Assembly: GCA_009694295.1 (NCBI GenBank)
Contig: SHVJ01000011.1
Coordinates: forward strand, 1-35,796
Source: Acidimicrobiia bacterium
Lineage (GTDB): Bacteria; Actinomycetota; Acidimicrobiia; IMCC26256; PALSA-555
DNA length: 35,796 bases
Direction: 5' to 3'
Of the stretch, positions 3,362-27,459 are shown one piece after another. Positions within the stretch are counted from its first letter, which is position 1. The number at the start of each line of letters is the position of its first letter. The notes below the pieces were generated by a model. It was not told where the DNA came from and did not search any database. It saw only the letters and a list, made by a program, of their open reading frames with translations. The translations under genes were made by a program, and so were the position numbers.

Positions 3362-4894
3362 CTAGATGGGTGCGACGGTGTCGAGGGCAAGCAGATCCTC
3401 GAGCACCGCGATGGCCTGGAGCACCGCGACATCCGCGTGCTGCGGGCCCACCACCTGCATGCCGATCGGGAGGCCGCTCGTCGTGAAGCCAGCACACACT
3501 GTGCCCGCAGGGGAGCGGGTCATGTTGAACGGCTGCGTGAGCCGACTCCAGTCGAGAACGTGCTCGCCATCGATGGTCCCCAGCGGCACGTCGAGCGACC
3601 CCAGTCCCTCGAGCCATCCGGTCAAGCGCTCGAGGTCGAGGCCGCTGGTGAGCTTCTCGATGTCGACGTCGCCCTCAGTAAGGAAGCGGGCCATGAGGTC
3701 GCCGACGGTCGTGGGCATCGAAGCGAGTGGGATCACGCCACACGTCGTCGGGCACAACAGCAGGTCGACCTGCTCGAAGACGTCGACCAGCTGCCCATTC
3801 AAGCGATGGCACGCGTCCTCGGCGTCGACGAAATCGACCGCCGACACCGTGGCCGCGGACATCTCTGCCGCGATCACGACGAGCGGATCGAGCTGCGACC
3901 AGAACGGCGTGTCGCGGAACGGCTCGATCGTGCGTCGGGTATAGGTGGAGACGAGCGCGCCGATCGAAGGGCCAGGGTCCTCGTCGAACACCGTGGCCAG
4001 TTCGACCACTTCGGTGCCGGCGGAGGCCAACTTCTGCGCCGCGGCAACGCATGCAGCACGGACTTCCGAGTCGACGCGCGCGTAGCCGAGGTCGGGTGAC
4101 CACCCCACTCGTTTCGGTGGCGGGGGATCCGCCAGGGCCGCGAACCAGGATGTGGAGTCGCGCGGCAACGATCGGAGGTCGTGCTGATCAGGTCCGACCA
4201 CGACGTCGAGCGCGTACGCAACGTCGCGAATGCGGCGCGCCATCACGCCGCGCGTCGAGAGGTGACCCCACCCTCCCGGTCGTGGATCGCCCGTCGGCAC
4301 ACGCCCGAGCGACGGCTTCAACCCCGACATCGCAGTCGCCGACGACGGGATGCGGATCGAGCCTCCGCCGTCGGACCCGGTGGCCAGCGGCACCATGCCC
4401 GACGCCAGCGCAGCCGACGTGCCGCCCGACGAGCCGCCGGGCGTGCGCTCGAGGTCCCATGGATTGCGAGTGATGCCGAACGTGGGGTTGTCGGTCTGCG
4501 GTTTCAACCCGAACTCAGGAGTGTTCGTCTTGCCGACGATCACGGCGCCGGCGTCGCGCAGACGGGCAACCAGCACGGAGTCGCGTTCAGCAGGCTCGTC
4601 GTGTGCGTGCGTGACCGACCCAGAGGAAGTGACAAAGCCACGCGCGTCTTCGAGGTCCTTGACGCCGATCGGGATCCCGGCCAACGGACCGACGGTCTCG
4701 CCGCGGGCGACGCGTTGGTCGATGGCGTCGGCTTGGGCGAGAGCCGAATCGCCGTCCAGGGCGACGAAGGCGTTGACGCGAGGGTTGAGGTCGTCGATGC
4801 GCGCCAGCGCATGCTCCACAAGCTCGCGTGAAGACACGCGACGGCTCGTTACATCGGCGACCAGGTCAGGGAGGGAGGTTCGTCGGAAGTCCAC
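3362..4894 (-). CDS. Amidase (amidase-signature family)
   Basis: 510 residues. The Ser-cisSer-Lys triad is visible: K79 in GIPIGVKD, S155 in the GGSSGG segment and nucleophile S179 in GGGSIRIPSS, with the expected 24-residue spacing between the serines. These cytosolic enzymes hydrolyse carboxamides, and GatA is a relative. No gatB or gatC is adjacent and the C-terminal half lacks obvious GatA features, so a catabolic or detoxifying amidase is more likely. Start is GTG with TAGCCT 8 nt upstream and no Shine-Dalgarno, which suggests a leaderless message. It is divergent from the deazaflavin oxidoreductase gene. Confidence 0.9.
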   Translation of the reverse strand: MDFRRTSLPDLVADVTSRRVSSRELVEHALARIDDLNPRVNAFVALDGDSALAQADAIDQRVARGETVGPLAGIPIGVKDLEDARGFVTSSGSVTHAHDEPAERDSVLVARLRDAGAVIVGKTNTPEFGLKPQTDNPTFGITRNPWDLERTPGGSSGGTSAALASGMVPLATGSDGGGSIRIPSSATAMSGLKPSLGRVPTGDPRPGGWGHLSTRGVMARRIRDVAYALDVVVGPDQHDLRSLPRDSTSWFAALADPPPPKRVGWSPDLGYARVDSEVRAACVAAAQKLASAGTEVVELATVFDEDPGPSIGALVSTYTRRTIEPFRDTPFWSQLDPLVVIAAEMSAATVSAVDFVDAEDACHRLNGQLVDVFEQVDLLLCPTTCGVIPLASMPTTVGDLMARFLTEGDVDIEKLTSGLDLERLTGWLEGLGSLDVPLGTIDGEHVLDWSRLTQPFNMTRSPAGTVCAGFTTSGLPIGMQVVGPQHADVAVLQAIAVLEDLLALDTVAPI

Positions 4895-4902
4895 GGCCGG
4901 GC

Positions 4903-4908
4903 AGGCTA
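4903..4908 (-). promoter_or_regulatory. -10 box TAGCCT for a leaderless amidase transcript
   Basis: TAGCCT on the minus strand ends 8 nt before the GTG start. It fits the TANNNT-start spacing that recurs across the window. No Shine-Dalgarno is seen in between. Confidence 0.55.
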
Positions 4909-4954
4909 GATCGGTCTGGAATACTTCGCGGTCCCCCTACCGTCTTGAGGTCAC

Positions 4955-5368
4955 ATGCCCGACATCAACGATTTCAACCAGAAGATCATCGACGAATTCC
5001 GCGCCAATGAGGGCAAGGTGGGAGGTCCCTTCGAGGGGTCGCAGCTCTTGCTGTTGCACACCACTGGCGCCAAGAGCGGCCAAGAGCGCATCGCCCCGTT
5101 GGCCTACCGGATCGACGGCGACCACTTCGCCATCTTCGCGAGCAAGGCCGGCGCGCCGACGAACCCCGATTGGTTCCACAACCTCGTGGCGAACCTCGAC
5201 GTGACGGTCGAGGTCGGGACCGAGGAGTTCGCGGCACGGGCCCGGGTGGCTGAAGGCGAGGAGCACGACCGCATCTGGGAAGCCCAGAAGCGCGATGTTC
5301 ACCACTTCGTGGAGTACGAGAAGAAGACCGACCGCAAGATCCCGGTGGTGGTGCTCGAACGCATCTGA
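4955..5368 (+). CDS. Deazaflavin (F420)-dependent nitroreductase-family protein
   Basis: 137 residues, the usual size of the Ddn/Rv3547 split-barrel family (DUF385). The family hallmark, LLLLHTTGAKSGQERIAPLAY, lies at about 31-51 and is followed by the NPDWFHNL helix and a strand pair. Relatives use reduced coenzyme F420 to reduce quinones and nitroaromatics, and F420 use is typical of actinomycetes. It is monocistronic, with TACCGT at 4938 and a short GAGG before the ATG. It converges on the DUF983 gene 7 nt away. The physiological substrate cannot be inferred. Confidence 0.85.
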   Translation: MPDINDFNQKIIDEFRANEGKVGGPFEGSQLLLLHTTGAKSGQERIAPLAYRIDGDHFAIFASKAGAPTNPDWFHNLVANLDVTVEVGTEEFAARARVAEGEEHDRIWEAQKRDVHHFVEYEKKTDRKIPVVVLERI

Positions 5369-5375
5369 TCCAGAC

Positions 5376-5786
5376 TCAGATGTGATGGACCTGTTCGTCG
5401 GCGGGTTCATTACGGTCGAGTCGCTGCATCACGCCGCGATCGATCGCGAGCCAGAGGGTCTTCGAATGCGGGTACAGCGCGATCGGTAGGAGAAGAGCGA
5501 GCGGCACGAAGATCGCCAGGAGCGGAACTACCGGCACGTCGGGGATCGTCAGTGCGAGCGCGGTGGCGAAGCCAAAAGCCAAGATCCCGGTAGTGACAGC
5601 GATGTTCACCGCCATCGCGCCGATCCAGTAGCCCGCTTCACGTTCGAAGTGCAGACTGCAGCAGGGGCAGTCAGGAACGATCTCGAACCAGCGCCGAAAC
5701 AGGTGTCCTGCGCCACATCGTGGGCATCGCCGGGTGCACCCTCGCCAGAGCATGCGGACACGAGTCGCAGGCTCGGCCGACTTCAA
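5376..5786 (-). CDS. DUF983 membrane protein
   Basis: 136 residues. The N-terminal zinc-ribbon-like part has two cysteine clusters (CTRRCPRCG at about 17-25 and CPCC at about 40-43). It is followed by an aromatic FEREAGYWIGAM segment and two hydrophobic spans (about 54-78 and 84-106). This is the DUF983 arrangement, a family of small inner-membrane proteins of unknown function that is often near cytochrome oxidase genes. Start is a TTG with TACCGT 8 nt upstream and no ribosome site, so the TTG is supported mainly by the leaderless pattern. An internal ATG would lose the start of the ribbon region. Confidence 0.8.
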   Translation of the reverse strand: MKSAEPATRVRMLWRGCTRRCPRCGAGHLFRRWFEIVPDCPCCSLHFEREAGYWIGAMAVNIAVTTGILAFGFATALALTIPDVPVVPLLAIFVPLALLLPIALYPHSKTLWLAIDRGVMQRLDRNEPADEQVHHI

Positions 5787-5794
5787 GAGTCTTC

Positions 5795-5800
5795 ACGGTA
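5795..5800 (-). promoter_or_regulatory. -10 box TACCGT for the DUF983 gene
   Basis: TACCGT on the minus strand ends 8 nt before the TTG start, in line with other leaderless-type starts here. Confidence 0.5.
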
Positions 5801-5872
5801 CGCGATGATGCCGTGTGTTCAGACTCGGAGCAGGCGAGCGGTAGGTGCCGGACTGGGCTCAGAGAACCCGGT

Positions 5873-5897
5873 CGACCAGAGAGCGCGACCAGAGAGC
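5873..5897 (+). repeat. Tandem 12-mer directly before the aldo/keto reductase
   Basis: CGACCAGAGAGC occurs twice (5873-5884 and 5886-5897, period 13 nt). The second copy ends next to the AGGAGG ribosome site of the aldo/keto reductase. It could be an operator or a 5'-leader element. It is otherwise unexplained. Confidence 0.5.
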
Positions 5898-5908
5898 AGG
5901 AGGGCGTT

Positions 5909-6895
5909 GTGGAGCTGCGTCAGCTCGGCGGTGCAGGAATCAGTGTCTCGGAGCTGTGTCTCGGAGCGATGACCTTCGGTCGGGAGGCCGATGAGGCGAC
6001 GAGTAAGGCGATGGTCGATCGCTTCCTCGATGCCGGCGGCAACTTCGTCGACACCGCGAACGTGTACTCCGACGGCCTTTCCGAAGAGGTCACGGGTCGA
6101 GCGCTCAAGGGGAAGCGGGACCAGGTAGTGCTCGCCACGAAGGTGCGTTTCCAATCGGGGCCGGGTCCGAACGACGTCGGTTTGTCGCGGCGTCACATCC
6201 GCCGCGCGGTCGAAGCCTCGCTGCGGCGGCTCGACACCGATTGGATCGATCTCTACCAGGTGCACTGCTGGGACAACCGGGCCTCGCTCGACGAGACGTT
6301 GTCGACACTCAACGACCTCGTCCACGAAGGGAAGGTCTGTTACCTCGGCGCGAGCAACTACACGGCGTGGCAGCTCGCCAAGTCGCTGGGCATCGCAGAG
6401 GGCAAGGGCTTGACGCCGTTTGCCACGCTGCAGCCCGAGTACTCGCTCATCACCCGCGACATCGAACGCGAGTTGCTTCCGTTGTGCCGATCGGAGAGCC
6501 TCGCGGTGTTGCCGTGGAGCCCGCTCTGTGGCGGGATTCTCAGCGGCAAGTACCGCAAGGAGGAAGATTTGCCGAAGGGAACGCGCGGTGGTGACGCCGA
6601 GGAGCCGATCACCTTCACCTACAAGCTCGACGATCGCGCGTGGAACATCGTGGAAGCTGTGCGCAAGGTCGCCGACGATCTCGGGAAATCCTCTGCGCAG
6701 GTAGCGATCAACTGGATCACGAACCGGCCGGGAGTCACATCACCGATCATCGGCGCGCGGAACCTCGAACAGCTCGACGACAACCTCGGTTCGGTCGGGT
6801 GGCAGCTCGACGAGGAGCACTGGAAAGCCCTCGCCTGGGCTTCGGCGTTCCCGCGCGGCTACCCGTACGACTTCATCGAGTACGCAGACCACTGA
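5909..6895 (+). CDS. Aldo/keto reductase
   Basis: 328 residues. The (beta/alpha)8 AKR fold carries the full catalytic tetrad D48, Y53, K78 and H119 (FVDTANVYSDG, LATKV, LYQVHCWD). The C-terminal NADPH-binding segment is present (GVTSPIIGARNLEQLDDNL). It most resembles the YajO/PhdG-type general AKRs that reduce aldehydes and ketones with NADPH. The start is the GTG at 5909 with AGGAGG 5 nt upstream. The open frame runs upstream to 5720, but that part is low-complexity and overlaps the DUF983 gene. The stop overlaps a possible start of the universal stress gene (ATGA at 6895), so the two are probably co-expressed in stress. Confidence 0.9.
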   Translation: MELRQLGGAGISVSELCLGAMTFGREADEATSKAMVDRFLDAGGNFVDTANVYSDGLSEEVTGRALKGKRDQVVLATKVRFQSGPGPNDVGLSRRHIRRAVEASLRRLDTDWIDLYQVHCWDNRASLDETLSTLNDLVHEGKVCYLGASNYTAWQLAKSLGIAEGKGLTPFATLQPEYSLITRDIERELLPLCRSESLAVLPWSPLCGGILSGKYRKEEDLPKGTRGGDAEEPITFTYKLDDRAWNIVEAVRKVADDLGKSSAQVAINWITNRPGVTSPIIGARNLEQLDDNLGSVGWQLDEEHWKALAWASAFPRGYPYDFIEYADH

Positions 6896-9313: not shown

Positions 9314-10078
9314 ATGCCCATCCAGGGTTTTCGCGCACGCGCTGTCGATGTGGCCAATCGCATCGGCGAGAAGCTCATCCGCCGCATCGACGGGTACTTC
9401 GGGCGCCGCTCCCTCGTGGGGGATCACACCTTCTTCGACCAATCCGATTTCCCGTGGATCGCGGAGATCGAGGCCGAAGTCTCGAACATCCGCAACGAGC
9501 TCGACGACGTCCTCCAGTACCACGACGACCTCCCCAACTTCCAGGACATCTCCACCGACCAGTACTCGATCACCGACGACGATCGATGGAAGACGTTCTG
9601 GTTCTTCGCCTACGGCTTCACGGTCGACACCAACCTCAAGCGCTGCCCGAAGACGGCGAGTGCGCTCGCGAAGATCCCGGACTGCACATCGGCGATGTTC
9701 TCGATCTTGTCGCCGGGCAAGCACATCCCGCCCCACGGTGGGCCGTACAAAGGTGTGCTGCGGTACCACCTCGGTCTCATCGTCCCAGGCGCGCCAGGCG
9801 GCTGCCGGATCCGTGTCGGCAACGACGTGCGGCCGTGGGCCGAGGGCAAGAGCTTGGTGTTCGACGACACGTTCGAACACGAAGCGTGGAACGACAGCGA
9901 CGGCACGCGAGTGGTGCTGTTCGTCGACTTCAAGCGTCCGCTCAAGGGCGTCGCCCGCGTGTTCAACAACGTGGTGTTGAAGCTGATCGGGTTCTCGCCG
10001 TTCATCCAGGACGCGAAGCTCCGTCATAACGCCTGGGAGAAGCGCTTCGAAACCGTCAGAAACCTAGCGCGACCTTAG
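9314..10078 (+). CDS. Aspartyl/asparaginyl beta-hydroxylase-family dioxygenase (LpxO/OlsC-like)
   Basis: 254 residues. Fe(II)/2-oxoglutarate dioxygenase signatures are H141 (KHIPPHGG), the RYHLGL segment with H152, H189 in FDDTFEHEAWN, and R199, which should bind 2-oxoglutarate. As in the family, iron is held by two His. The C-terminal half (VDFKRPLKG, then a hydrophobic VVLKLIGFSPF and a charged tail) resembles LpxO and OlsC, which 2-hydroxylate acyl chains of lipid A and ornithine lipid. A lipid substrate is therefore plausible, and stronger because an alpha-oxoamine synthase lies next door. TAGCCT (9283) and GGAGGGG (9301) precede the ATG. It converges on that synthase and overlaps it by 4 nt. 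Confidence 0.82.
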   Translation: MPIQGFRARAVDVANRIGEKLIRRIDGYFGRRSLVGDHTFFDQSDFPWIAEIEAEVSNIRNELDDVLQYHDDLPNFQDISTDQYSITDDDRWKTFWFFAYGFTVDTNLKRCPKTASALAKIPDCTSAMFSILSPGKHIPPHGGPYKGVLRYHLGLIVPGAPGGCRIRVGNDVRPWAEGKSLVFDDTFEHEAWNDSDGTRVVLFVDFKRPLKGVARVFNNVVLKLIGFSPFIQDAKLRHNAWEKRFETVRNLARP

Positions 10079-11277
10079 ATTTGGTCGTGGTCGGCCATGA
10101 CCTTTGAGAGAGTGTCGGCCGCTTCCCGGAGTATCGCGGTGTCGTGGTCGACCATGAGACTCAAGCGGATGAGTCCCATCTCCTTGGTGACCGCAGGTGG
10201 GATGACGGGGTTCACGAAGACGCTATGATCGAGGAGGTCGAGGGCAAGCAGCACAGTGTCGACCTCGTTGTCCTTGCGCAGCGGGATCGTGACGATCGCG
10301 CTCTCTGCCGGGTTGGTGGGAACACCACGCTCGTTGAGCATCCCGAGGAAGTCCGCCACCGCGGTACGCAGGCGTGCCGGGCGTTCGGGCTCCGCGCGAA
10401 GGATGCGCAGCGCAGCGAGTGCTGCGGCGACCGAACCCGGTGTGTTCGACGCCGTGAAGATGAGCATGTCCGACGTGAGCTGCATGAGTTCTACGGCAGC
10501 TTCCGAGCCGATGATCGCACCGCCGCACGATCCGAGCGTCTTCGAGAACGTGATCGTCACGAGGTCAACTTCGTTGACAACGCCATATTGCTCGGCAGCG
10601 CCACGCCCGAGCTCACCGAGCACGCCGAGACCGTGTGCTTCGTCGTCGAGGATGAACGTGTTCGGGAACTTTCGGCAAAGCTCCACCATCTCGGCGAGTG
10701 GTGCGGTGTCGCCACCCATTGAGTAGACGCCATCGACGATAAGTCCCTTCCCGGCTTCGGCGGGGAGCGACTGCAACACCTTCTCGAGATGCGCGAGGTC
10801 GTTGTGTCGGAAGCGCTTCATGCCGGCGCCGGCGAGCTTCACGCCGGTGAGCAAGGAATTGTGGATCTCCTTGTCGACGATGGCGAAGTCGCGGCGCGTC
10901 AGATAGCCAGCGATGGCGCTCATGTTGGCCACGTAGCCCGTGGCGAACACGAGCGCAGCCTCGCGCCCGTAGAAGTCGGCCAGTTCGCCCTCGAGTTCCT
11001 TGTGAAGCGTGAGCGTGCCATTCAAGAGTCGGCTGCCCGTCACGCCACTTCCGAAGTGGCGCGTGGCCTCGATCGTGGCTTCGATCACCTTCGGGTGATA
11101 CGAGAGGCTCAGATAGTTGTTCGAGCCGAAGTTGATTGCCTCGCGACCCTCGATGGTGATGCGTGGCGTGGAGGCCGACTCGACCGACTTGTAATACGGC
11201 CAGTACCCGGCAGCCTTGGCCATCCGGTATGGCTCGATACGCGGGAACGCGTCGAGACGGTCGGAGAAGTAACTCAA
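10075..11277 (-). CDS. Alpha-oxoamine synthase (serine palmitoyltransferase / KBL / AONS family)
   Basis: 400 residues, fold-type I PLP enzyme. K246 in TFSKTLGSCGG is the Schiff-base lysine. H139 (EIHNS) and D211-H215 (DDEAHGLG) are the other PLP contacts. The GSGVTGSRLLNGT segment and FRHND are typical of the family. The enzymes condense an amino acid with an acyl thioester and release CO2. Several segments look closer to bacterial serine palmitoyltransferase than to BioF, and no biotin genes are nearby. Start is TTG with TAGACT 7 nt upstream, so it may have its own promoter. The amino acid and acyl donor are not determined by the sequence. Confidence 0.85.
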   Translation of the reverse strand: MSYFSDRLDAFPRIEPYRMAKAAGYWPYYKSVESASTPRITIEGREAINFGSNNYLSLSYHPKVIEATIEATRHFGSGVTGSRLLNGTLTLHKELEGELADFYGREAALVFATGYVANMSAIAGYLTRRDFAIVDKEIHNSLLTGVKLAGAGMKRFRHNDLAHLEKVLQSLPAEAGKGLIVDGVYSMGGDTAPLAEMVELCRKFPNTFILDDEAHGLGVLGELGRGAAEQYGVVNEVDLVTITFSKTLGSCGGAIIGSEAAVELMQLTSDMLIFTASNTPGSVAAALAALRILRAEPERPARLRTAVADFLGMLNERGVPTNPAESAIVTIPLRKDNEVDTVLLALDLLDHSVFVNPVIPPAVTKEMGLIRLSLMVDHDTAILREAADTLSKVMADHDQI

Positions 11278-11284
11278 GACGGCA

Positions 11285-11290
11285 AGTCTA
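11285..11290 (-). promoter_or_regulatory. -10 box TAGACT for the alpha-oxoamine synthase
   Basis: TAGACT on the minus strand ends 7 nt before the TTG start. It lies in the 61-nt gap after the acyltransferase gene, so the synthase may be transcribed both alone and by read-through. Confidence 0.5.
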
Positions 11291-11338
11291 CGGTCGCGGC
11301 CGCTGCGGGGGCGGGTGGTGTAGTGCGGTCGACGGTGT

Positions 11339-12184
11339 CTACGGCCGGGGCTCGACCATCACGCCCGAACCTTCGGGATCCTCGAGGACCTGCCTGAGGC
11401 GGCGGATCGTGAACCAGGCGACGAGCCCATCTTCTGCGCGCTCGTCGAAGGTGAACTTGAGGTTCATCTTACGACGTCGATCTGGCCCGCTGCGGGGACT
11501 CCCCTCGACGATGGTGGGGCGGCCGACGGAGCAGAAGATGACCGCGGTGCCGTACTCGTAGAGGTGGTGGTACACCGCAGGCATGCCGAAGCTCGCCATG
11601 TTGGCGAAGAAGGCCGAGGTGTACATCGGGTCCTTCTCGATGTAGCCGCGCGGAAGCATCCCGCAGTTGTCGAGGCCGCGAACGCATGCCATCAAGAAGC
11701 GGCGGATGAACCCAGGGAAGATCATGAGCACGCCGATCTCGCGATCGATCGTCTTCATCTCGCCGGAGAGCACCTTGACCTGCTCGGCGTGCATGCCAGC
11801 GACCATGTCGCCGAAGGTGGTGTCGAGGTCGAACCGCCGTTTGATCACCACGAACGGCGCACCGGTCTCGAGCTTGGTCTTGACCACGTACGAGAACCAG
11901 ACGCCCTTGCGCTGGTAGAGCCGCCCGCCCTTGACGAACCGATCGACGGTGGGATTCCGCTGGAGCGCGTCGCTCAGTGCCCAAACGGCGAGGTGAAACA
12001 TGTCGACCTGTCGACTGGGGTTGGCTTCATTCCACGAGCGTATGAACGCATCGGACTTCTGAAGATCGCAGTCCGTTTCGAAGTACACCGCAGACTCATT
12101 TCGTCCACGCATGAGATACGGCATGACGCGTCGAGTCGCCGGCACGTCGCGTACGAGCACGCCGTCTGAGCGCCGCCACCACAT
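11339..12184 (-). CDS. Stand-alone E2/CAT-like acyltransferase, catalytic His replaced
   Basis: 281 residues from the ATG at 12184. The open frame continues upstream, but that part is arginine-rich and runs into the protease gene. The C-terminal part matches the 2-oxoacid dehydrogenase E2 / chloramphenicol acetyltransferase fold: LKFTFDERAEDG (242-253) aligns with the usual FDHRxxDG, followed by the RLRQVLEDP helix. Lipoyl and E3-binding domains are absent. The HxxxDG His is Glu (E248), while D252 and G253 remain, so acyl transfer may be altered or lost. The gene lies 31 nt after the protease and 61 nt before the alpha-oxoamine synthase. A role in acylating its product is an inference. Confidence 0.7.
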   Translation of the reverse strand: MWWRRSDGVLVRDVPATRRVMPYLMRGRNESAVYFETDCDLQKSDAFIRSWNEANPSRQVDMFHLAVWALSDALQRNPTVDRFVKGGRLYQRKGVWFSYVVKTKLETGAPFVVIKRRFDLDTTFGDMVAGMHAEQVKVLSGEMKTIDREIGVLMIFPGFIRRFLMACVRGLDNCGMLPRGYIEKDPMYTSAFFANMASFGMPAVYHHLYEYGTAVIFCSVGRPTIVEGSPRSGPDRRRKMNLKFTFDERAEDGLVAWFTIRRLRQVLEDPEGSGVMVEPRP

Positions 12185-12215: not shown

Positions 12216-13025
12216 TCACCTAGACACCGTCGACGCGATCCAGTGCGATGCAGTCGCAACGCGGGTGTACACGCCGGGGCTGTGGGGTAACCCGCAGCCA
12301 TCGCCCCAAGCGACGACGCCGACCTCTACCCACCCGAACCGGGTCCCGACGAGCAACGGGCCACCGCTGTCGCCGGTGCACGCGTCGGCACCGCCGCTGC
12401 GGATGTTCCCGGCACACAGCTCGGTCGCGACCCCGAACGCGTTGTGGTCGATGGCCATGACCCGCTCGCATCGAGTCTGGGGCACGAAGGGCACCGTGGC
12501 GACAAGCAGATCGTCGGCGGGCAGCCCGTCGGCATCGGGATCCTCTTCGTCGACGTTCACGGTGTCGCCCCACCCGATCACAGTCGCCGTGGTGCCTGCG
12601 ACGGTGAACGCGCTGTCGTCCCGACCAGGCAACAGCGCCGGTACAACGGCCGAAGGCCCCGCCAGCCGCAGCAGCGCGAGGTCGAGCTTGCCGGGCGCGA
12701 CGACCACGTCGCGTACCGCGATTCGTTCACCACCTCGTCGTGAGAGGCGGGTCCGTCCGATGAGCGTGTCGATGCGGTCGGCGCGCATCGGTCGGCCACC
12801 CTTTCGGGTGACGCAATGCGCGGCCGTGAGCACCCATTCCGAGCTGATGAGCGAGCCGCCACAGAACTGGCTGTCGATGGCCGCGTAGCCCGGCTCGACG
12901 AGCGCGACGACAAACGGGTATTTGCCGGGTTCGGCGGGGGTTCCATTGGTGATGCCGACTGCGGGCGTGCTGGACATCCCGAGCACGACCGCGCACACGA
13001 GTGCGATACGCATGAGGCGCATCAT
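12216..13025 (-). CDS. Secreted trypsin-like serine protease (S1 family)
   Basis: 269 residues from an ATG that overlaps the upstream lipoprotein stop (ATGA). A start at 13040 would add five residues. Signal peptide about 1-23 (hydrophobic ALVCAVVLGM, then AVG). The mature chain begins near ITNGT, equivalent to IVGG. The triad is H70 (TAAHC), D115 (LDLALL) and S220 (TGDSGGP). D214, six residues before S220, is the trypsin specificity Asp, so cleavage after Arg/Lys is expected. Disulfides are likely (C55/C71, C186/C204 region). Coupling to a lytic transglycosylase suggests joint work at the cell wall. Confidence 0.88.
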   Translation of the reverse strand: MMRLMRIALVCAVVLGMSSTPAVGITNGTPAEPGKYPFVVALVEPGYAAIDSQFCGGSLISSEWVLTAAHCVTRKGGRPMRADRIDTLIGRTRLSRRGGERIAVRDVVVAPGKLDLALLRLAGPSAVVPALLPGRDDSAFTVAGTTATVIGWGDTVNVDEEDPDADGLPADDLLVATVPFVPQTRCERVMAIDHNAFGVATELCAGNIRSGGADACTGDSGGPLLVGTRFGWVEVGVVAWGDGCGLPHSPGVYTRVATASHWIASTVSR

Positions 13026-13990
13026 CAGGAGGAGGTCCAACCCTCGGGCAAGAGGAACGTACCGTCGGCGCTCGCGTAGAACACCTGCCAGTGGTAGTAG
13101 CCGTCGTACGCGCCGGGGTCGGCCGCCATCACGCTGGCGTACGCCTTGATTGCCGCGACGTAGCGTTCGTCGTTGTTGTACCGGAACAACGCGTTGTCGA
13201 TGTCGGTGGCCGCGTCATTCGACTGGAGGTAGTGGGCTGCCGCGATGATCGCGTCGTGGTTGCTGTTGATGTCGCCCTGGCCGAAGGCATCCCACGTGCT
13301 CTGGATGAACTGCATCGGCCCCTGCGCGCCGGCGGTGCTGTTGCCGTGGATGCGTCCCATCCGAGTCTCGGAGAGATGGATCGCGGCGAGGTACTGCCAC
13401 GGGACCCCGTAGGTCTGCTCGCCCTCTGCGTAGTACGCCCGGAGCATCTCGGGCGGCTCGGGAGTGAGGATCTGCCAGTCAGGGAAGCCCACCGGCGCCG
13501 ACACGCTGCCGGTCAATCCGTTGAGGGCGGCCCCCGCGTCAATGGTCGCCTGCACCGCGACGGCGAGATCACCAGGGACCGCTTCGAGCACGGTTGGCAC
13601 CCAGTTCGGGTGCGAGGCGAGCGCGCGGTACGCGAGCTGCTGCTTGCGCCCGAGCTTCTCGAGGCGCGCGGCATCGCGGTTCGATCCACGCAGCCCGCGC
13701 TCGACGCGGACGATCGTCTTCGCGGTTGCCTCGGCGGTCTTGGGCCCAGCCACCTCTTCGATCGGGATCGGTTCAGTGGATGCCGCTGGGGTCGCGGTTG
13801 CGGACGGTGTCGTTGTCGAGAGCGAGTCGACCGTTGGCGGTGTTGTGGTCGTGCTCGCAGTGCTCGGGATGGTGGTGGTCGTCGAGTCGGTCTCGGTGTT
13901 GATACCGGCGAGCTGCCCGCCACCGCCGCTGCAGGCGGTGATCGCGAGAGTCGTGGCGGCGACCAGTCCAAGAAGCCCGCCACGCCGCAC
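13025..13990 (-). CDS. Lytic transglycosylase-like lipoprotein
   Basis: 321 residues. Lipobox AITAC puts the lipidated Cys at 20, after a hydrophobic stretch. A Thr/Pro/Ser-rich linker (about 35-75) spans the wall. The C-terminal domain has the SLT-type hallmark: E208 in LSETRMG, then the GAQGPMQFIQSTW segment and a helix pair with HYLQSND. This enzyme class cleaves the glycan between MurNAc and GlcNAc. GTG start, with a weak CATCCT 6 nt upstream. It is the first gene of a minus-strand run of four, coupled by ATGA to the protease. Confidence 0.85.
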   Translation of the reverse strand: MRRGGLLGLVAATTLAITACSGGGGQLAGINTETDSTTTTIPSTASTTTTPPTVDSLSTTTPSATATPAASTEPIPIEEVAGPKTAEATAKTIVRVERGLRGSNRDAARLEKLGRKQQLAYRALASHPNWVPTVLEAVPGDLAVAVQATIDAGAALNGLTGSVSAPVGFPDWQILTPEPPEMLRAYYAEGEQTYGVPWQYLAAIHLSETRMGRIHGNSTAGAQGPMQFIQSTWDAFGQGDINSNHDAIIAAAHYLQSNDAATDIDNALFRYNNDERYVAAIKAYASVMAADPGAYDGYYHWQVFYASADGTFLLPEGWTSS

Positions 13991-14059
13991 CCGGAGAGGA
14001 TGCCAGGCGCCAGCGGGCGCTGTCCTACTCAGGTCACAAGACGGGTGGACTCGGACTTA

Positions 14060-14065
14060 TAGGGT
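14060..14065 (+). promoter_or_regulatory. -10 box TAGGGT for the poly-gamma-glutamate hydrolase-like gene
   Basis: TAGGGT (within TTATAGGGT) ends 8 nt before the GTG start. No ribosome site is seen. Confidence 0.5.
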
Positions 14066-14073
14066 GCCAGCGC

Positions 14074-14667
14074 GTGTTCGCGGAGCTGCTTTCGTCGCCT
14101 GGGGTCGAAGAGCACGTCGCGTTGCGCTCGCGCGTCGGGTTCCTCGCGTTGCACGGCGGGCTCGAGGAAGCGACAGCCGAGATCGCGGAGGCAGCCGCAT
14201 CACGGGCAGAAGCGTCGTGGTACGCCGTTGTGCAGCCCATCGATGGGGCATGGCACCTACCGTCGCATCGGTTCGATCCCGATGCTTCACCTCGGCTCCA
14301 ACGCGTGGTCGAGCATTGCGACATCGTCATCTCGTTGCACGGCTTCGGTCGGGCCGGATTGTGGACGTCGGTGCTGGTCGGTGGTGAGGCGCGCGCCCTG
14401 GCTGACCAGCTGTCGATCGCGCTGCGCCAGGGCCTCCCCGAGTACGAGATCATCGACGACCTAGAGGCGATCCCGGCTGATCTCCGCGGTCTTGACGCGC
14501 GCAATCCCGTAAATCGCACGCGTGGTGGGGGTGTGCAACTCGAGTTGCCACCGCGGGTCCGGGGGATGGGGCCACATTGGCGCGACTTCGACGGCCCGGG
14601 CTTCACAGCAGATACCGCGGCGCTCGTAGATGCGCTCGTATCGTTCGCGGTCGCGTGTGCAACCTAG
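14074..14667 (+). CDS. Poly-gamma-glutamate hydrolase-like protein
   Basis: 197 residues. ALHGG with a following E31 (LHGGLEE, H27) and VISLHG (H89) match the zinc-binding motifs of the phage-type PghP / DUF867 family. Those enzymes cleave the gamma-glutamyl bond in capsular poly-gamma-glutamate with a carboxypeptidase-like zinc site. No signal peptide is visible, so it may act in the cytosol or reach the surface by lysis. GTG start, monocistronic, converging on the PIG-L gene 11 nt away. A CapA-like gene lies 8 kb away in the same window. The substrate may differ from poly-gamma-glutamate. Confidence 0.75.
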   Translation: MFAELLSSPGVEEHVALRSRVGFLALHGGLEEATAEIAEAAASRAEASWYAVVQPIDGAWHLPSHRFDPDASPRLQRVVEHCDIVISLHGFGRAGLWTSVLVGGEARALADQLSIALRQGLPEYEIIDDLEAIPADLRGLDARNPVNRTRGGGVQLELPPRVRGMGPHWRDFDGPGFTADTAALVDALVSFAVACAT

Positions 14668-14678
14668 TGGTGGCCCGA

Positions 14679-15353
14679 CTAGATCGGTAACACCTCGAAC
14701 TCGACTGCGTGGTCCACGCCGAAGCGTGCGCCCGCGACTTCGGCCGCACCGCGCAGGATCTGGTCGGGGTCGCTCGTACCGTCGCCGAGGCCGTCCAAGT
14801 AGACGCGGTGCTCTGCGAGCGACGCGATGCCGCGGTCGAGGTATCCCGTCACATCGACCGCGTGCGTTGCGTTCGGCGATGCATTGAACGCCACGTGGTG
14901 GATGCCAGACCACGGCTCAAGCCCGGCATCGAGCAGCTCGGTGAAGACCCAGCGATTGGCCGCGTCGCGTGCGGCGTCGAGGATTGCGAGGCCGACGTGG
15001 CGATGGTCGGCCATGTTCAGCCAACCGCCGGGCCAGGTGTCGCGATAGTTCGCAGTCAGGATGATGTCGGGTCGGTGACGGCGGAAGGCCGCTGCGAGGT
15101 CGCGCCGCAAGGGGATGCCGTACTCGATCACTCCGTCGCGATGACCGTCGAGGAACTCGACGACCTCGACACCCACGACCGCGGCGCTGCGCCGCTCTTC
15201 TTCTGCTCTGACCGCACCGGTCGCTTCGGGCGCCATGGTGTCGATGCCAGCCTCGCCGCGGGTGACGAGCAGGTACGACACGACCTTTCCTTCGGACGTC
15301 CACCGCGCGATCGCACTGGCGGCGCCGTACTCGAGGTCGTCAGGGTGCGCCAC
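14679..15353 (-). CDS. PIG-L family deacetylase (N-terminus cut off by in-frame TAG)
   Basis: The first usable start gives 224 residues beginning V-A-HPDD. The zinc motif AHPDD is at residues 2-6, with a later zinc His in NMADHRHVG. Actinobacterial relatives include MshB and Mca, which deacetylate GlcN-type sugars and mycothiol conjugates. The first beta strand, normally RALAVVAHPDD, is encoded but comes after a TAG at 15372-15374. Before that TAG, 12 sense codons run back to a GTG at 15410, which overlaps the stop of the HD gene (GTGA). The intact gene would be 14679-15410, and TAG sits where Trp is expected. Either the protein starts short, or the gene is broken. Confidence 0.8.
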   Translation of the reverse strand: MAHPDDLEYGAASAIARWTSEGKVVSYLLVTRGEAGIDTMAPEATGAVRAEEERRSAAVVGVEVVEFLDGHRDGVIEYGIPLRRDLAAAFRRHRPDIILTANYRDTWPGGWLNMADHRHVGLAILDAARDAANRWVFTELLDAGLEPWSGIHHVAFNASPNATHAVDVTGYLDRGIASLAEHRVYLDGLGDGTSDPDQILRGAAEVAGARFGVDHAVEFEVLPI

Positions 15354-15410
15354 GACGGCGAGGGCGCGGGTCTAGTCCTCGGGAAACGGCGCGAGGCGCG
15401 CCGGCGTCAC
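15354..15410 (-). other. 5' remnant of the PIG-L gene with an in-frame TAG at codon 13
   Basis: From GTG 15410 the frame reads V-T-P-A-R-L-A-P-F-P-E-D-stop-T-R-A-L-A-V-V-A-H-P-D-D. The GTGA overlap with the HD-domain gene is a normal translational-coupling start. The PEDW-RALAVVAHPDD pattern, as I recall, is usual in actinobacterial relatives. A single G-to-A change (TGG to TAG) would explain the break. Confidence 0.6.
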
Positions 15411-15961
15411 AGCGACTTGGGGTTTCCGAAGATCTCGCGAACGCGCGGCTCGAAGTGCTCGAGCGGCAACGTGTCATAGGTGGGATCAAACGCGATCTGA
15501 TCCCACTCGTCGGCGAATTGGGCCGCGAGGTCGAACCAGGGCTCCCCGCGGTACTGCTCACGCGCGTTCGGGTCGCCGCCGAAGTGGTGGTAGTAGTGCC
15601 GGCCCTGAAAGTCCTGGTGGGCGCGAATCACCTGGTACAAGTCGTCGCTCACGTAGGACTTGAGGATCTCGGCGGCGATCTTCGGGTGGTTCGGCACGCT
15701 GACGGCCTTGCCGATGTCGTGGCAGAGCGAGGCGACGACCATCTCGTCGTTGGCGCCCGCGCGCTCGGCCAGCATCGCTGTCTGGAGGCAGTGCGTGAGC
15801 TGATCGACCGCGAACCCGTCGGTGATGTCGGCAAGGGAGCGCAACAAGGCCAGGACACCGTCGGCCACCCGGCCCTGGTTGTCCATTGTCTCCTTGCCGA
15901 TGGCTGCCCACTGCTCAGCCGTCGACTCGTCCATCCGCGTGAGTTTGGTGGTGGTCGTCAT
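15407..15961 (-). CDS. HD-domain protein (phosphohydrolase or di-iron oxygenase type)
   Basis: 184 residues from ATG at 15961. The metal motif is H57, then H81-D82 (SLCHDIGK), H92 and H115 (IRAHQDF), with D151 later. The C-terminal LPLEHFEPRVREIF is typical of a COG4341-like group. HD proteins of this kind are either phosphohydrolases or, as in PhnZ and myo-inositol oxygenase, mixed-valent di-iron oxygenases. The H-to-HD spacing of 24 residues equals that of PhnZ, but the rest does not align cleanly. Upstream ORF extension to 16306 is spurious and overlaps the divergent PLDc_N gene. Coupled to the PIG-L gene by GTGA. Confidence 0.78.
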   Translation of the reverse strand: MTTTTKLTRMDESTAEQWAAIGKETMDNQGRVADGVLALLRSLADITDGFAVDQLTHCLQTAMLAERAGANDEMVVASLCHDIGKAVSVPNHPKIAAEILKSYVSDDLYQVIRAHQDFQGRHYYHHFGGDPNAREQYRGEPWFDLAAQFADEWDQIAFDPTYDTLPLEHFEPRVREIFGNPKSL

Positions 15962-16057
15962 GGCGTCATTGTTCCACGGATCGACTGATCGGCCCACGAC
16001 ATCTGGGCTCCTCGTGCGTACACTTCCGCCACCGTCGGACGGGGGAAGGGGCTGCGA

Positions 16058-16414
16058 ATGCTGGCCGCAGAAGGACTCGTCGGCCTCGTCCTGTTCCTGT
16101 TCTGGGTGTGGGCGATCTTCGACTGCATCTCGACTGATGCCGCGTCGTGCCGCAATCTCCCGAAGGGCATGTGGCTGATCCTCGTCCTCATCCTTCCCGA
16201 CATCGGCGCGTTGGCGTGGCTGATCATCGGTCGGCCGGAGCGGGCCGGATGGCGACCAGGTTCCACCGACTACTCGCGACCAGGCCCCCTCGGCTTGGAG
16301 GACCATCCGCGCTCTGGCGCGTCGCTCGAGATCACCGATCGCCAGTCGGCCGAGCTCGACCGCAAGCTCCAGGATTGGGAGCGCGAGCAGGCGGAAAAGT
16401 CATCCGAAGGGTAG
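16058..16414 (+). CDS. PLDc_N-domain small membrane protein
   Basis: 118 residues. Two transmembrane helices (about 3-22 and 37-58) with the FDCI and LPKGMW...LPDIGALAWLIIGRP signature of the PLDc_N domain, found at the N-terminus of cardiolipin synthases and in stand-alone actinobacterial proteins. The rest is hydrophilic and charged. TACACT at 16019 and a GGAAGGGG ribosome site precede the ATG. Its TAG stop is followed in the same frame by a 37-residue coiled coil that ends at the next gene, so the natural protein may be longer. Function unknown. Confidence 0.78.
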   Translation: MLAAEGLVGLVLFLFWVWAIFDCISTDAASCRNLPKGMWLILVLILPDIGALAWLIIGRPERAGWRPGSTDYSRPGPLGLEDHPRSGASLEITDRQSAELDRKLQDWEREQAEKSSEG

Positions 16415-16438
16415 GCCGCGACTCCTGATCACCTGGAT

Positions 16439-16552
16439 GTGTGGGAGACCGAGCTGAACCGCCGAGAAGAAGAGCTTCGTCGTCGAGAGCTCGAGCTGCG
16501 TGAACGCGAGTTGCGGGCGCGCGAAGATGACATCGACGAAGGTGGTCGATGA
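16439..16552 (+). CDS. Coiled-coil tail segment, in frame with the PLDc_N protein
   Basis: 37 residues if read from GTG 16439. It is almost entirely Glu/Arg/Leu in a heptad-like pattern (WETELNRREEELRRRELEL). Its frame is that of the PLDc_N gene, separated from it only by TAG at 16412 and eight codons. Its TGA overlaps the start of the peroxiredoxin-like gene (ATGA). I think this is the C-terminal tail of the PLDc_N protein rather than an independent gene, because PLDc_N proteins in related bacteria often end in such charged helices. No good ribosome site lies before the GTG. Confidence 0.45.
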   Translation: MWETELNRREEELRRRELELRERELRAREDDIDEGGR

Positions 16553-17082
16553 TGGATGTGCAAGCGCTCGGCGAAGTCGAGCTTGAGGACGCGAACGGCG
16601 ACGTGCGCCGTATGGGCGACCTCTGGGCCGACAAGCCGGTTGTGCTGGTGTTCCTTCGCCACTTCGGCTGTCTGCTCTGCCGTGAGCACGCCACCGACCT
16701 TCGGGAGCGCTACGCCGACATCACGGCGCAGCACGGCGAGGTTGTTGCCGTGGGCACAGGGAACCGCCGGTATGCGGCGGCTTTTGTCGAAGAGGAGAAG
16801 GTGCCGTTCCCGGTGCTCGTCGATGACGACGGGCGCGCAGCGCACGCCGCAAGTGTGCAGAAGGTCAACTTCTTCAAGCTCGTCCTGAACCCGCGGAGCT
16901 GGGCTGGTACCCGACGCGCCCATCGGGCCGGACACCGAGTGCATCGAGCCGGTCGACGGGTCACGCAGCTCGGCGCGACGTTCGTGGTCGGGCCCGGCAA
17001 TCAGGTGCGGTATGAGCACCTCGATGCGCACTCAGCCGATCACGCGCCGCTCGATGTGGTCATCGGCGCGCTTCACGCCTGA
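16549..17082 (+). CDS. Peroxiredoxin-like (AhpC/TSA, PRXL2 type) protein
   Basis: 177 residues, starting at an ATG inside the overlap with the coiled-coil frame. The thioredoxin-fold strand VVLVFLRHFGCLLCREH carries C41-L-L-C44, in place of the PxxxTxxC of true peroxiredoxins, and matches the PRXL2/AhpC-TSA-like group. These proteins are thought to be thiol reductases or peroxidases. The middle RAHRAGHRVHRAGRR stretch is unusually basic. It follows the PLDc_N gene in one unit and converges on the M48-like gene 9 nt away. Substrate unknown. Confidence 0.78.
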   Translation: MMDVQALGEVELEDANGDVRRMGDLWADKPVVLVFLRHFGCLLCREHATDLRERYADITAQHGEVVAVGTGNRRYAAAFVEEEKVPFPVLVDDDGRAAHAASVQKVNFFKLVLNPRSWAGTRRAHRAGHRVHRAGRRVTQLGATFVVGPGNQVRYEHLDAHSADHAPLDVVIGALHA

Positions 17083-17091
17083 CGGTCGGCG

Positions 17092-18048
17092 TTACCGAAG
17101 GCCAGCGCCTCGCTCGAGCCGCTTGACGCGACGCGGCAGGATCCGATGCGTGCGGAGGAAGAGCTTCGACGCCCGGGTGTGTGGGTACTCGAGCCACAGA
17201 TGGGCGTTGGCTGGATCGCCGCGCCGGACGTCGCGTGGATCCTCGAGGATGCGCCGAAGCGCTTGAGCAAGCGCGACCGGGTTGCGGCAATAGCGGATCG
17301 CCAGACCGTCGGCCAGGCGCGCCCGGCTCCGCAAGACTCCGGCACGGAGCACTGCGCACACGGCGACGAACGGCAAGGAGACGAGTCCGAGCGGCGCGAG
17401 CAGCAGTGACACGTGATCAAGGTCGGCGAAGGCGGCGGCCCAAAGCTCGAACGTTCGCGACGTGAGCGCGTAGACGACCGTGTCGAGCGAGACTTCGAGC
17501 TCGACGACGCGGCCGATCTCGTACGCGAGCACCGCTTCGAGCTCGCGCTTGGGGAGCACATCGAGCAACCCGGTGGTGACGACGATCCACGCGGTCTCGG
17601 GTCGCCGCCCGACCGTCAGGCAGTTCGGAGCGTCGTCGATGACTACCGCCACTCGGGGAGCGTGCACGCCCGACGCGAGCCCGAGACCAAGAAGCAGCTT
17701 CTCGGCGCGTTCCACCGCGTCCTCCGGCATGCGTGGCGGGGGTTTGGGTGCGGCGCGCGGGCCTGGCCAGGCGCGCACGAAGTCGAGGACACGCGCTTCG
17801 GCGTGGAACAAGGAATACGCGAAGGTGCCGCCGGCGACGACCACGCCGAACGCCAAGCTGATCCAGCCTGCCCATTCCGCGAGGCCCCAGCCGTAGCCGA
17901 GCCCGGTGTCGAGCGGGTTGGAGACCGCACCAAGGATCCAGGCAACCGGGAACACGATCGCGCTCATGGTGAGGACCAGCACGAGCAGTCCACCCGCGGT
18001 GACGAGACGGATGCGTCGTCGTGCGGAGCGGATCAGATCCTCGTGCAC
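17092..18048 (-). CDS. Degenerate M48-like membrane protein, zinc motif lost
   Basis: 318 residues from GTG 18048. The frame stays open upstream to 18753, but that part is a shadow of the penicillin-acylase gene. Two N-terminal transmembrane helices (about 15-40 and 59-81) precede a domain with the order of HtpX/M48 peptidases: a RVAVVIDDAPNCLTVGRRP strand pair, an IVVTTGLLD strand, then LEAVLAYEIGR. There the HEXXH motif reads Y176-E-I-G-R180, so both zinc His are gone. A further membrane span lies at about 207-232. It is therefore probably a pseudo-protease or scaffold. Divergent from the penicillin-acylase gene. Confidence 0.72.
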   Translation of the reverse strand: MHEDLIRSARRRIRLVTAGGLLVLVLTMSAIVFPVAWILGAVSNPLDTGLGYGWGLAEWAGWISLAFGVVVAGGTFAYSLFHAEARVLDFVRAWPGPRAAPKPPPRMPEDAVERAEKLLLGLGLASGVHAPRVAVVIDDAPNCLTVGRRPETAWIVVTTGLLDVLPKRELEAVLAYEIGRVVELEVSLDTVVYALTSRTFELWAAAFADLDHVSLLLAPLGLVSLPFVAVCAVLRAGVLRSRARLADGLAIRYCRNPVALAQALRRILEDPRDVRRGDPANAHLWLEYPHTRASKLFLRTHRILPRRVKRLERGAGLR

Positions 18049-18114: not shown

Positions 18115-20388
18115 GTGGTGGAGGTTGAGGTCGCCGGTCTCGATGGCGAGGTCGTCATCCACCGGGACGTGTGGGGTATCCCGCATGTCCGGGCCACGAC
18201 CGGCCGCGACGCCTTTGTGGGCCAAGGTTTCGTGCAAGCCGAGGACCGCCTGGGCCAGCTCGAGTACGACCGCCGCCGGGCATACGGACGCTGGGCCGAG
18301 GTTGCCGGGCGTGGTGCGCTCGGGTTCGACGTGTTCGCGCGCCGCTGCGGACTCGGTGCGGCGGCTCACCGCGAGTTCGATGCGTTGACCCCGGAGGCAC
18401 AGGAGCCGTTGATCGCATTTGCTGCTGGCGTCAACGCATTCCTCGGTACTGGCGCGCCACTTGCGCCGGATGTGCGCGTCGCGGAAATCGTGCCGGAGCC
18501 GTGGTCGCCATGGGACTGCTGCGCGGTCTTCCTCGTTCGGCATGTCGCTTTCGCCAACTGGCAACGCAAGCTCTGGCGAGGCCGGCTCGCAGTAGTGCTC
18601 GGCGGCGAGGCCGCGGCCCGTCTCGAAGGCAACGACGCCAGCGACGTGCCGTTGATCGTGCCGCCCGGCTCGTGGTGGCGGGCAGCGCCGCGCGATCCGA
18701 ACGGACTCGACCCGGTCACGTCGGCGACGGCTGCGCTCGTGGAGACCGCGCACGGAAGCAACGCCTGGGTCGTCTCCGGTTCACGCACCGATTCCGGGCT
18801 CCCGTTGCTCGCGGGCGATCCACATCGGTTGGTGGAGGCACCTGGCGTCTATTACCAGTGCCGGCTCGCGTGCCCCGAGTTCGACGCGTTCGGTCTCGCG
18901 TTCGTGGGCGTACCGGGCTTGCCGCACTTCGGGCAGACCGAGCACGTCGCCTGGGGTGTCACCAACGCGAACGGCGACTACCAGGATCTCTACGTCGAGC
19001 GCTTCCGCGGCGACGACTCACTCGAGTACGAAACACCTGGAGGTTGGCTTGCTCCGGCGCATCACACCGAGACGATTGTCGTTCGCGGTGACGACGAGGT
19101 GGTGATCGACTGCTTCGAGACCCGACACGGTCCGGTCGTGTTCGGCGATCCGGCGCAGGGCCATGCCGTCGCGTTACGTTCGACCGCGTTGGTCGAGCCG
19201 AGTCCAGGGCTCTCAGTGCTCGCGCCGATGTTGCGCGCTACCGACGTCGACGGGCTCGATGTGATCATGCGCGCGTGGGTTGACCCTGCGAACAATCTCG
19301 TGAGTGCGGACACCGCCGGCAACATCGCGTACCGCACGATCGGCCGCATCCCGGTGCGTGCTCGGGCGAACGCGTGGGGTCCGGTCCCCGGTTGGACCGA
19401 CGATCACGAGTGGCGCGACGTCGTGCCGTATGACTCGCTTCCGCGAGCGAAGAACCCCGACGATGGCCTCATCGTGACCGCCAACCAGCGGATCGTGGGC
19501 GATGACTATCCGCACTATCTCGGGTTGGACTACGCGCGGCCGGATCGCGCGATCCGTCTGCACAAGCGGCTCGACACCATCTCCGGCGCTGATGCGGCTG
19601 CGATGGCCGACGTGCATCGCGACCGTCGCTCCCTGCCCGCGGACGTGTGGGTCGATCGCTTGAGCCACCTCGAAGGGGCTGACGAATGGGAGCTCCTCGC
19701 CCTCGAAGCGCTCCGGGCATGGGACCGGGTGATGAGCGTCGACTCGGTCGCGGCCGCTGTCTACATGGTCGTGCGTGATGCGGTCGGGCGCGTCATCGCT
19801 CACGATCCCCGTCTCGCCACACTGCGGGCACCGATCACCGGTGAGCCGACCGCCACATTCGCGCCACTCGAGATGCGACTGTGGCCGCTACTCACGCCGT
19901 TGTTGGCCCGCGACGACCGCCTCCTGTTGCGCGCCGACCAGACCTGGGACGACGTGTTGGCGATGGCGCTCAGCGACGGTGTGGGTGTGCTGCGCACCGT
20001 GTTCGGTGACGAACCTGCGGCCTGGAGATGGGGAGCGCTCCATGTGTGCTCGCCCCGCCATCCGCTCTCGGCGGTGCATCCCGAGACCGATGGTGCACTC
20101 GATCCGCCTGGTGTCGAGATGGGTGGGGAGTGGGACACCGTGTTCAGCGCGGCGCACCCAGCCGGGACGGGATTCGGTGTGACGACCGCGTCGGTCGCGC
20201 GCTACGTGTTCGACCTGGATGGTCGACGGTCGAGCTCCTGGGTCGTGCCGCTTGGAGCTTCAGGTACCGCTGGTGATCCGCATTTCGCCGATCAGCAGCG
20301 CGCGTGGGCCGACGGTGTGGTGGTACCGATCGATCTCGATGTGTCGGAGAGGTCCGAACCGGTGACCCGGCTCAGGCCGGAGCGCTGA
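18115..20388 (+). CDS. Penicillin acylase-family N-terminal-nucleophile hydrolase
   Basis: 757 residues. The fold begins with IHRDVWGIPHV and QGFVQAEDRL, as usual. The autocatalytic Ser is S215 in HGSNAWVVSG, preceded by a spacer, so the precursor would split into an alpha chain of about 200 residues and a beta chain of about 540. GDPHR and the LPHFGQTEHVAWGVTNANGD block follow. Relatives hydrolyse penicillins, acyl-homoserine lactones or other N-acyl compounds. Most have a signal peptide, and none is seen here, so it may stay in the cytosol. Ends overlap the following minus-strand gene by 17 nt. Confidence 0.9.
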   Translation: MVEVEVAGLDGEVVIHRDVWGIPHVRATTGRDAFVGQGFVQAEDRLGQLEYDRRRAYGRWAEVAGRGALGFDVFARRCGLGAAAHREFDALTPEAQEPLIAFAAGVNAFLGTGAPLAPDVRVAEIVPEPWSPWDCCAVFLVRHVAFANWQRKLWRGRLAVVLGGEAAARLEGNDASDVPLIVPPGSWWRAAPRDPNGLDPVTSATAALVETAHGSNAWVVSGSRTDSGLPLLAGDPHRLVEAPGVYYQCRLACPEFDAFGLAFVGVPGLPHFGQTEHVAWGVTNANGDYQDLYVERFRGDDSLEYETPGGWLAPAHHTETIVVRGDDEVVIDCFETRHGPVVFGDPAQGHAVALRSTALVEPSPGLSVLAPMLRATDVDGLDVIMRAWVDPANNLVSADTAGNIAYRTIGRIPVRARANAWGPVPGWTDDHEWRDVVPYDSLPRAKNPDDGLIVTANQRIVGDDYPHYLGLDYARPDRAIRLHKRLDTISGADAAAMADVHRDRRSLPADVWVDRLSHLEGADEWELLALEALRAWDRVMSVDSVAAAVYMVVRDAVGRVIAHDPRLATLRAPITGEPTATFAPLEMRLWPLLTPLLARDDRLLLRADQTWDDVLAMALSDGVGVLRTVFGDEPAAWRWGALHVCSPRHPLSAVHPETDGALDPPGVEMGGEWDTVFSAAHPAGTGFGVTTASVARYVFDLDGRRSSSWVVPLGASGTAGDPHFADQQRAWADGVVVPIDLDVSERSEPVTRLRPER

Positions 20389-27436: not shown

Positions 27437-27459
27437 TCGAAAGTCGAGAAGGGAACACG

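Follow-up and report, generated by a model that had tools for sequence, protein, structure and literature searches.

Two known systems of bacterial sphingolipid synthesis come closest to the locus described here. The set of Caulobacter and E. coli BL21 consists of spt, acpR, aasR, cerR (epi) and bcerS (aca, CC_1154/yghO), and its yghO/CC_1154 member is the N-acyltransferase gene assigned to dihydroceramide synthesis (PMC9386255; PMC11324152); we refer to N-acyltransferases of this type, which are GNAT proteins, as bCerS. In Bacteroidota, serine palmitoyltransferase (SPT) is known together with an SDR-type 3-ketosphinganine reductase (BT_0972). In a survey of Black Sea genomes, SPT-like genes turned up in 38 phyla, in many cases with no bCerS or CerR linked to them, and it was suggested that proteins not homologous to these two may take their place (PMC11334938).

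The locus described here resembles the Caulobacter and E. coli BL21 set in its SPT-like synthase, which belongs to the same clade, and in that its class relatives carry CerR-like, YghO-like, ACP and acyl-AMP ligase genes beside SPT. It differs in that its family has no YghO-type GNAT, and in place of CerR, ACP and ligase the cluster contains a hydroxylase and an E2-fold protein. It is similar to the Bacteroidota system in that the top solved-structure and curated matches of the synthase are Sphingobacterium/CFB SPTs, and SDRs are found beside SPT in family f30 and in Myxococcota relatives; however, the cluster itself has no SDR, and the candidate SDR is located on another contig. The hydroxylase shares the PF05118 domain and the His/His/Arg set with the OlsC ornithine-lipid and LpxO lipid A hydroxylases, but it is set apart by sub-cut-off scores and by genetic linkage to SPT. 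The third protein has the predicted fold and the C-terminal FDxRxxDG frame of the E2 catalytic domain and chloramphenicol acetyltransferase; unlike these, it is a stand-alone protein without a lipoyl domain, with an invariant Glu for His and an extra invariant HH motif.

The window, i.e. the whole stretch of DNA that was analyzed, has 35,796 nucleotides and comes from a metagenome-assembled genome (G000, 64% complete), the relatives of which are Acidimicrobiia/Actinomycetota MAGs. Three intact genes are located within 3 kb: the hydroxylase gene (9314-10078, forward strand), the synthase gene (10075-11277, reverse strand) and the gene for the E2-like protein (11339-12184, reverse strand). The first two converge with a 4-base overlap at their 3' ends, and the third, on the strand of the synthase gene, precedes that gene by about 60 bases. 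The trio is kept throughout the actinobacterial family (12 genomes from five genera) in an unchanged arrangement, with the E2-like and synthase genes on one strand and the hydroxylase gene converging, while distant neighbors vary. Identity to the window proteins within the family is 65-97% for the synthase, 52-85% for the E2-like protein and 61-92% for the hydroxylase; in one genome (G004) the E2-like gene is split by a contig break. Because the trio recurs in the family in identical arrangement, a chance open reading frame structure is ruled out, and the observation of a three-gene cluster is confirmed. Pfam and NCBIfam matches and family conservation agree with the original prediction of an alpha-oxoamine synthase, an E2/CAT-like acyltransferase and an LpxO/OlsC-like hydroxylase at this position, and the window genes that were scanned include no biotin gene, in line with the original remark that none is near.

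Other genes lie beside the cluster. A trypsin-like protease gene (12216-13040) adjoins a lytic transglycosylase-like gene (13025-13990, reverse strand) and a gene of the poly-gamma-glutamate hydrolase family (PF05908; 14074-14667, forward strand). One database record (L021, CAMDCC010000045.1) has the family cluster at 85-97% identity; it is titled Bifidobacterium breve, evidently in error, and represents a MAG from this actinobacterial genus.

The cluster is best interpreted as serving the synthesis of a hydroxylated sphingolipid. With modest confidence, we consider it probable that the trio encodes part of such a pathway, in which SPT condensation, E2-fold N-acylation and OlsC-like hydroxylation would be carried out by the three products and reduction by an enzyme encoded elsewhere. 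The PLP synthase would join an amino acid, probably L-serine, to a fatty-acyl thioester, yielding a 3-keto long-chain base, as its position in the tree and its intact catalytic residues suggest. The E2-fold protein would then acylate the amine of this base with a second chain, taken from an acyl thioester, as bCerS does, with Glu248 acting as the base instead of the E2/CAT histidine; adjacency to SPT and complementary occurrence point to this step, which is the least certain one. The OlsC-like Fe(II)/2-oxoglutarate enzyme would hydroxylate an acyl chain of this product, with C2 as the probable position, which would fit both OlsC/LpxO chemistry and the linkage to SPT. The 3-keto group would be reduced by an enzyme encoded outside the cluster, perhaps by an SDR like the one at G000:C67:7110-7913. 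The hydroxylated ceramide-like lipid of the original prediction is favored by the SPT-type synthase, by the linkage of the hydroxylase to SPT and by a relative with a full set of genes; its proposal that the E2-like protein N-acylates the base stands less firmly, given the missing E2 His and the many SPT-less hosts of this family.

A more specific and more tentative proposal is that bacteria have a second ceramide synthase, not homologous to the first, in the E2-fold DERxxDG protein with Glu for His, which may replace the YghO/CC_1154-type bCerS in actinobacterial and myxococcal producers, together with the OlsC-like protein as a dedicated sphingolipid acyl hydroxylase. The cluster would be a variant of bacterial sphingolipid synthesis, and its E2-like enzyme would be new in kind if this role is proved. 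Our search of the open-licence literature found no description of a PF05118 protein acting as a sphingolipid hydroxylase, of sphingolipids in Acidimicrobiia, of the hydroxylase-SPT pairing or of an E2-like acyltransferase of this type; the original prediction had likewise called the gene combination one not known as described. With this cluster, a specific protein can be put forward for the missing acyltransferase and another as a candidate hydroxylase, both tied to SPT in several lineages. If the proposal is true, the recognition of sphingolipid producers in genomes would change, and sphingolipid synthesis would extend to uncultured actinobacteria of lakes and soils. The E2 fold would then be used for lipid N-acylation, providing bacteria with a second way to ceramide-type lipids through an acyltransferase unrelated to the known ceramide synthase.

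The E2-like protein (281 aa), the candidate ceramide synthase, bears weak similarity to PF00198 (25.6 bits vs a cut-off of 23). A Foldseek search with its AlphaFold2 model (pLDDT 73.8) returned 123 matches at E<=0.001, nearly all of the top 50 being E2 proteins; the match to the E2 catalytic domain has an E value of about 1e-12, and the protein is accordingly predicted to have the E2 acyltransferase fold. The catalytic FDHRVIDG of E. coli AceF aligns with FDERAEDG of the E2-like protein, where Glu248 within the DERAEDG motif (11426-11446, reverse strand) takes the place of the E2 catalytic His. Glu is found at this position in 82 of the 82 E2-like members compared, and the His206-His207 pair (YHHLYEYG; 11564-11569, reverse strand) is invariant in the same 82/82; Arg249, Asp252, Gly253 and Ser198 are also invariant in the family. 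A plain E2 component of a dehydrogenase complex is ruled out by the absence of both the lipoyl domain and the catalytic His. Loss of this His does not imply inactivity, since a Glu replacing the catalytic His of chloramphenicol acetyltransferase has been reported as a general base (Lewendon 1994, cited in PMC5986005).

In order to compare the E2-like protein (CAT) with bCerS, we called presence and absence by E-value thresholds in genomes that are often incomplete. No YghO/CC_1154-type GNAT was found in the 12 family genomes, some of which are 100, 99, 98 and 96% complete, and the bCerS-type GNAT was found in none of the 14 Acidimicrobiia-class genomes with both SPT and CAT. The strong GNAT matches in the class come from G087, G105, G195 and G202; these four are the genomes that have an SPT-like gene but no E2-like protein. 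The Myxococcota sample comprised 237 genomes of one phylum, 48 of them SPT-positive and 189 SPT-negative. Among the SPT-positive genomes, CAT alone is present in 24, bCerS alone in 14, both in seven and neither in three (Fisher p 1.5e-4), and a GNAT gene is beside or near SPT in 11. CAT is enriched with SPT in this phylum (odds ratio 3.3, p 5e-4; 8.1 for strong CAT matches). A phylogeny-corrected test of CAT and GNAT on the SPT tree had about three informative pairs, all opposite and 0 same (p 0.25); the complementarity of CAT and bCerS is thus only directional, and it loses significance when phylogeny is taken into account in this underpowered test.

The E2-like family is large and mostly myxococcal, and most of its Myxococcota members are encoded away from SPT. 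Because it is present in 67/189 SPT-negative Myxococcota, the family is not sphingolipid-specific; the GNAT family is present in 75 of the same 189 genomes. Clustering of neighbors around 80 E2-like loci revealed no shared partner gene beyond TetR-like genes at 13 of the loci. No strict linkage of all three genes was found across bacteria, the E2-like family being far wider than the trio. The original prediction asked whether the three families travel together: the E2-like gene adjoins an SPT-like gene throughout the actinobacterial family and in one myxococcal genome, where it forms a CAT-SPT-SDR tandem (G290, L176).

These observations bear on a competing explanation, in which the cluster does make an amino lipid resembling a sphingolipid, but its amine is acylated by another enzyme; the E2-like protein would then act as a partner, as a regulatory pseudo-enzyme or in a different acyl transfer (e.g. 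O-acylation). Replacement of the catalytic His in every member, the many SPT-less genomes that carry the E2-like gene and the lack of an SPT neighbor for most Myxococcota members are all consistent with this explanation. We nevertheless regard it as somewhat unlikely: adjacency to SPT is strict in the family and extends to G290, the 14 class genomes with SPT and CAT offer no bCerS-type GNAT, Asp252, Gly253, Ser198 and the Glu are all invariant, and Glu as a general base has the reported chloramphenicol acetyltransferase precedent.

In the preferred reading of N-acylation by the E2-fold protein, the long-chain base would be supplied by the synthase (400 aa, with a TTG start in the open reading frame list), which carries the PF00155 domain. 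Its top curated model is the NCBIfam SPT model, with 369.8 bits vs 317 for bioF, although the scores are under all three curated NCBIfam SPT cut-offs (369.8/640, 335.7/500 and 285.5/670 bits) as well as the bioF cut-off (317/426 bits). A PDB profile search scored SPT at 341 bits, KBL at 223, BioF at 216 and cysteate C-fatty acyltransferase at 192.7. In a maximum-likelihood tree of 51 synthases, the protein is placed in a clade with 99/99 support that contains all bacterial SPTs of solved structure (3a2b, 2x8u, 2w8t; Sphingomonas, Sphingobacterium) and also takes in the synthases of SPT-CerR-bCerS clusters. E. coli BioF, E. coli KBL and the class-level BioF/KBL-like enzymes fall outside this clade; the tree therefore rules out the BioF/KBL identity that the original prediction had weighed against SPT. 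The family sits on a long branch whose exact position within the SPT clade is unsettled, and a single origin of the hydroxylase-linked synthases is neither supported nor rejected (AU p 0.31). Lys246 (TFSKTLGS; codon at 10540-10542, reverse strand), H139, D212, H215 and R371 are invariant in two alignments (A2, A5). We take Lys246 to be the PLP lysine and the others to be the stacking His, the Asp/His and the carboxylate-binding Arg. Placement and residues together argue that the synthase is of the SPT type with its active site intact. As a separate observation, alpha-oxoamine synthase domains occur in open frames of about 2300 residues in the myxococcal genomes G223, G225, G208, G224, G213 and others, which probably encode multidomain enzymes.

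Amino acid specificity is not readable from the sequence here, and the family forms a long separate branch inside the SPT clade. Both facts leave room for a synthase that uses alanine, glycine or cysteate and leads to a 1-deoxysphingolipid, a sulfonolipid-like capnine derivative or another alpha-oxoamine lipid, rather than to a serine-based ceramide. We judge this unlikely, the structure of cysteate C-fatty acyltransferase being a far weaker match than SPT in the profile search above.

For the serine-based sphingolipid that we favor, the hydroxylase is the proposed acyl hydroxylase, and its assignment is based on PF05118 (E 6.7e-53) and on SPT-adjacent homologs. It is nearer OlsC (277 bits) than LpxO (120 bits) in the NCBIfam models, and under both equivalog cut-offs (277/450 and 120/500 bits). 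The His/His/Arg set is conserved in its alignment (A3), with invariant His141 (PPHGGPYKG; codon at 9734-9736, forward strand) and His189 (FDDTFEHEAWN; codon at 9878-9880, forward strand) presumably serving as the two Fe ligands, as in the AspH/LpxO family. A close homolog is present in 14 of 198 class genomes, all 14 of which also carry an SPT-like synthase, and the two genes are neighbors in every class locus examined. Three arrangements occur in the class. The hydroxylase gene converges on the synthase gene in the window's family (f1); in f12 (L110/L111) it converges on a series of SPT, ACP and acyl-AMP ligase genes, an order that resembles spt-acpR-aasR; and in G202 (L115) the full set is found, with hydroxylase, SPT, a CerR-like epimerase (the candidate reductase) and an opposing bCerS-type GNAT that is 33% identical to YghO (E 2e-65).

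Outside the class, an SPT-hydroxylase tandem is encoded in the myxococcal genome G235 (L199), which also has CAT. On a plasmid of Pseudomonas sp. JS425, a hydroxylase 53% identical to that of the window shares a region with FAAL (acyl-AMP ligase), CerR, ACP and SPT, and on a P. veronii plasmid a 38% identical one is found in a region with yghO and SPT. The co-occurrence considered in the original prediction thus extends, for the hydroxylase and SPT, from adjacency in Acidimicrobiia and Myxococcota to a shared plasmid region in Pseudomonas, and the linkage recurs in three phyla with differing gene orders. The hydroxylase family as a whole is not SPT-specific, because homologs in Pseudoroseomonas, Phyllobacterium and Novosphingobium stand away from any SPT, and a clade of SPT-linked hydroxylases was not resolved. 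That the trio are chance neighbors, with an OlsC for ornithine lipid and a BioF/KBL-type synthase but no unitary lipid pathway, agrees with OlsC as the top curated model and with the homologs away from SPT, one of them after an NRPS gene, but is very improbable in view of the fully supported position of the synthase outside BioF/KBL and the linkage in three phyla with varied gene orders.

Several plasmid loci deserve mention in their own right. In the JS425 plasmid (pPNP1, L230; about 13784-15831) the yghO/bCerS-type gene is broken by an IS5-family transposase, and the annotation shows uninterrupted genes for the acyl-AMP ligase, the CerR-like protein, ACP, SPT and the hydroxylase. Plasmid 1 of Rubrobacter radiotolerans (L165, 3866-7233) carries a complete SPT-GNAT-epimerase set on an actinobacterial replicon, annotated as generic or hypothetical. 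A Mycobacterium riyadhense plasmid (L233, 8004-8708) encodes an OlsC-like hydroxylase 42% identical to that of the window; its gene immediately follows a very long NRPS gene for amino-acid adenylation, which suggests that the OlsC-like family may also serve peptide products.

In the sphingolipid pathway proposed above, the reductase would be encoded apart from the trio, beside which no reductase gene is found. The SDR encoded within the window (27367-28218) was rejected as the 3-keto reductase, being FabG-like and unlike the SPT-linked SDRs. Most family genomes encode another SDR that resembles the SPT-adjacent SDRs of f30 and Myxococcota (about 110-200 bits vs 40-80 for the FabG-like protein), and the source genome has this candidate on a different contig (the C67 gene given above). 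A similar KDSR-like SDR is also present in an SPT-less genome.

Finally, the window contains a gene of the penicillin-amidase family (18115-20388, forward strand; PF01804, E 1e-174), which several genomes of the family keep at a distance of about 3-8 kb from their trio; in relatives it is located at 3828-6158 (L117), 15294-17597 (L126) and 4386-6701 (L026). Penicillin-amidase-type enzymes cleave N-acyl amides, and a link to the lipid of the cluster is therefore conceivable.
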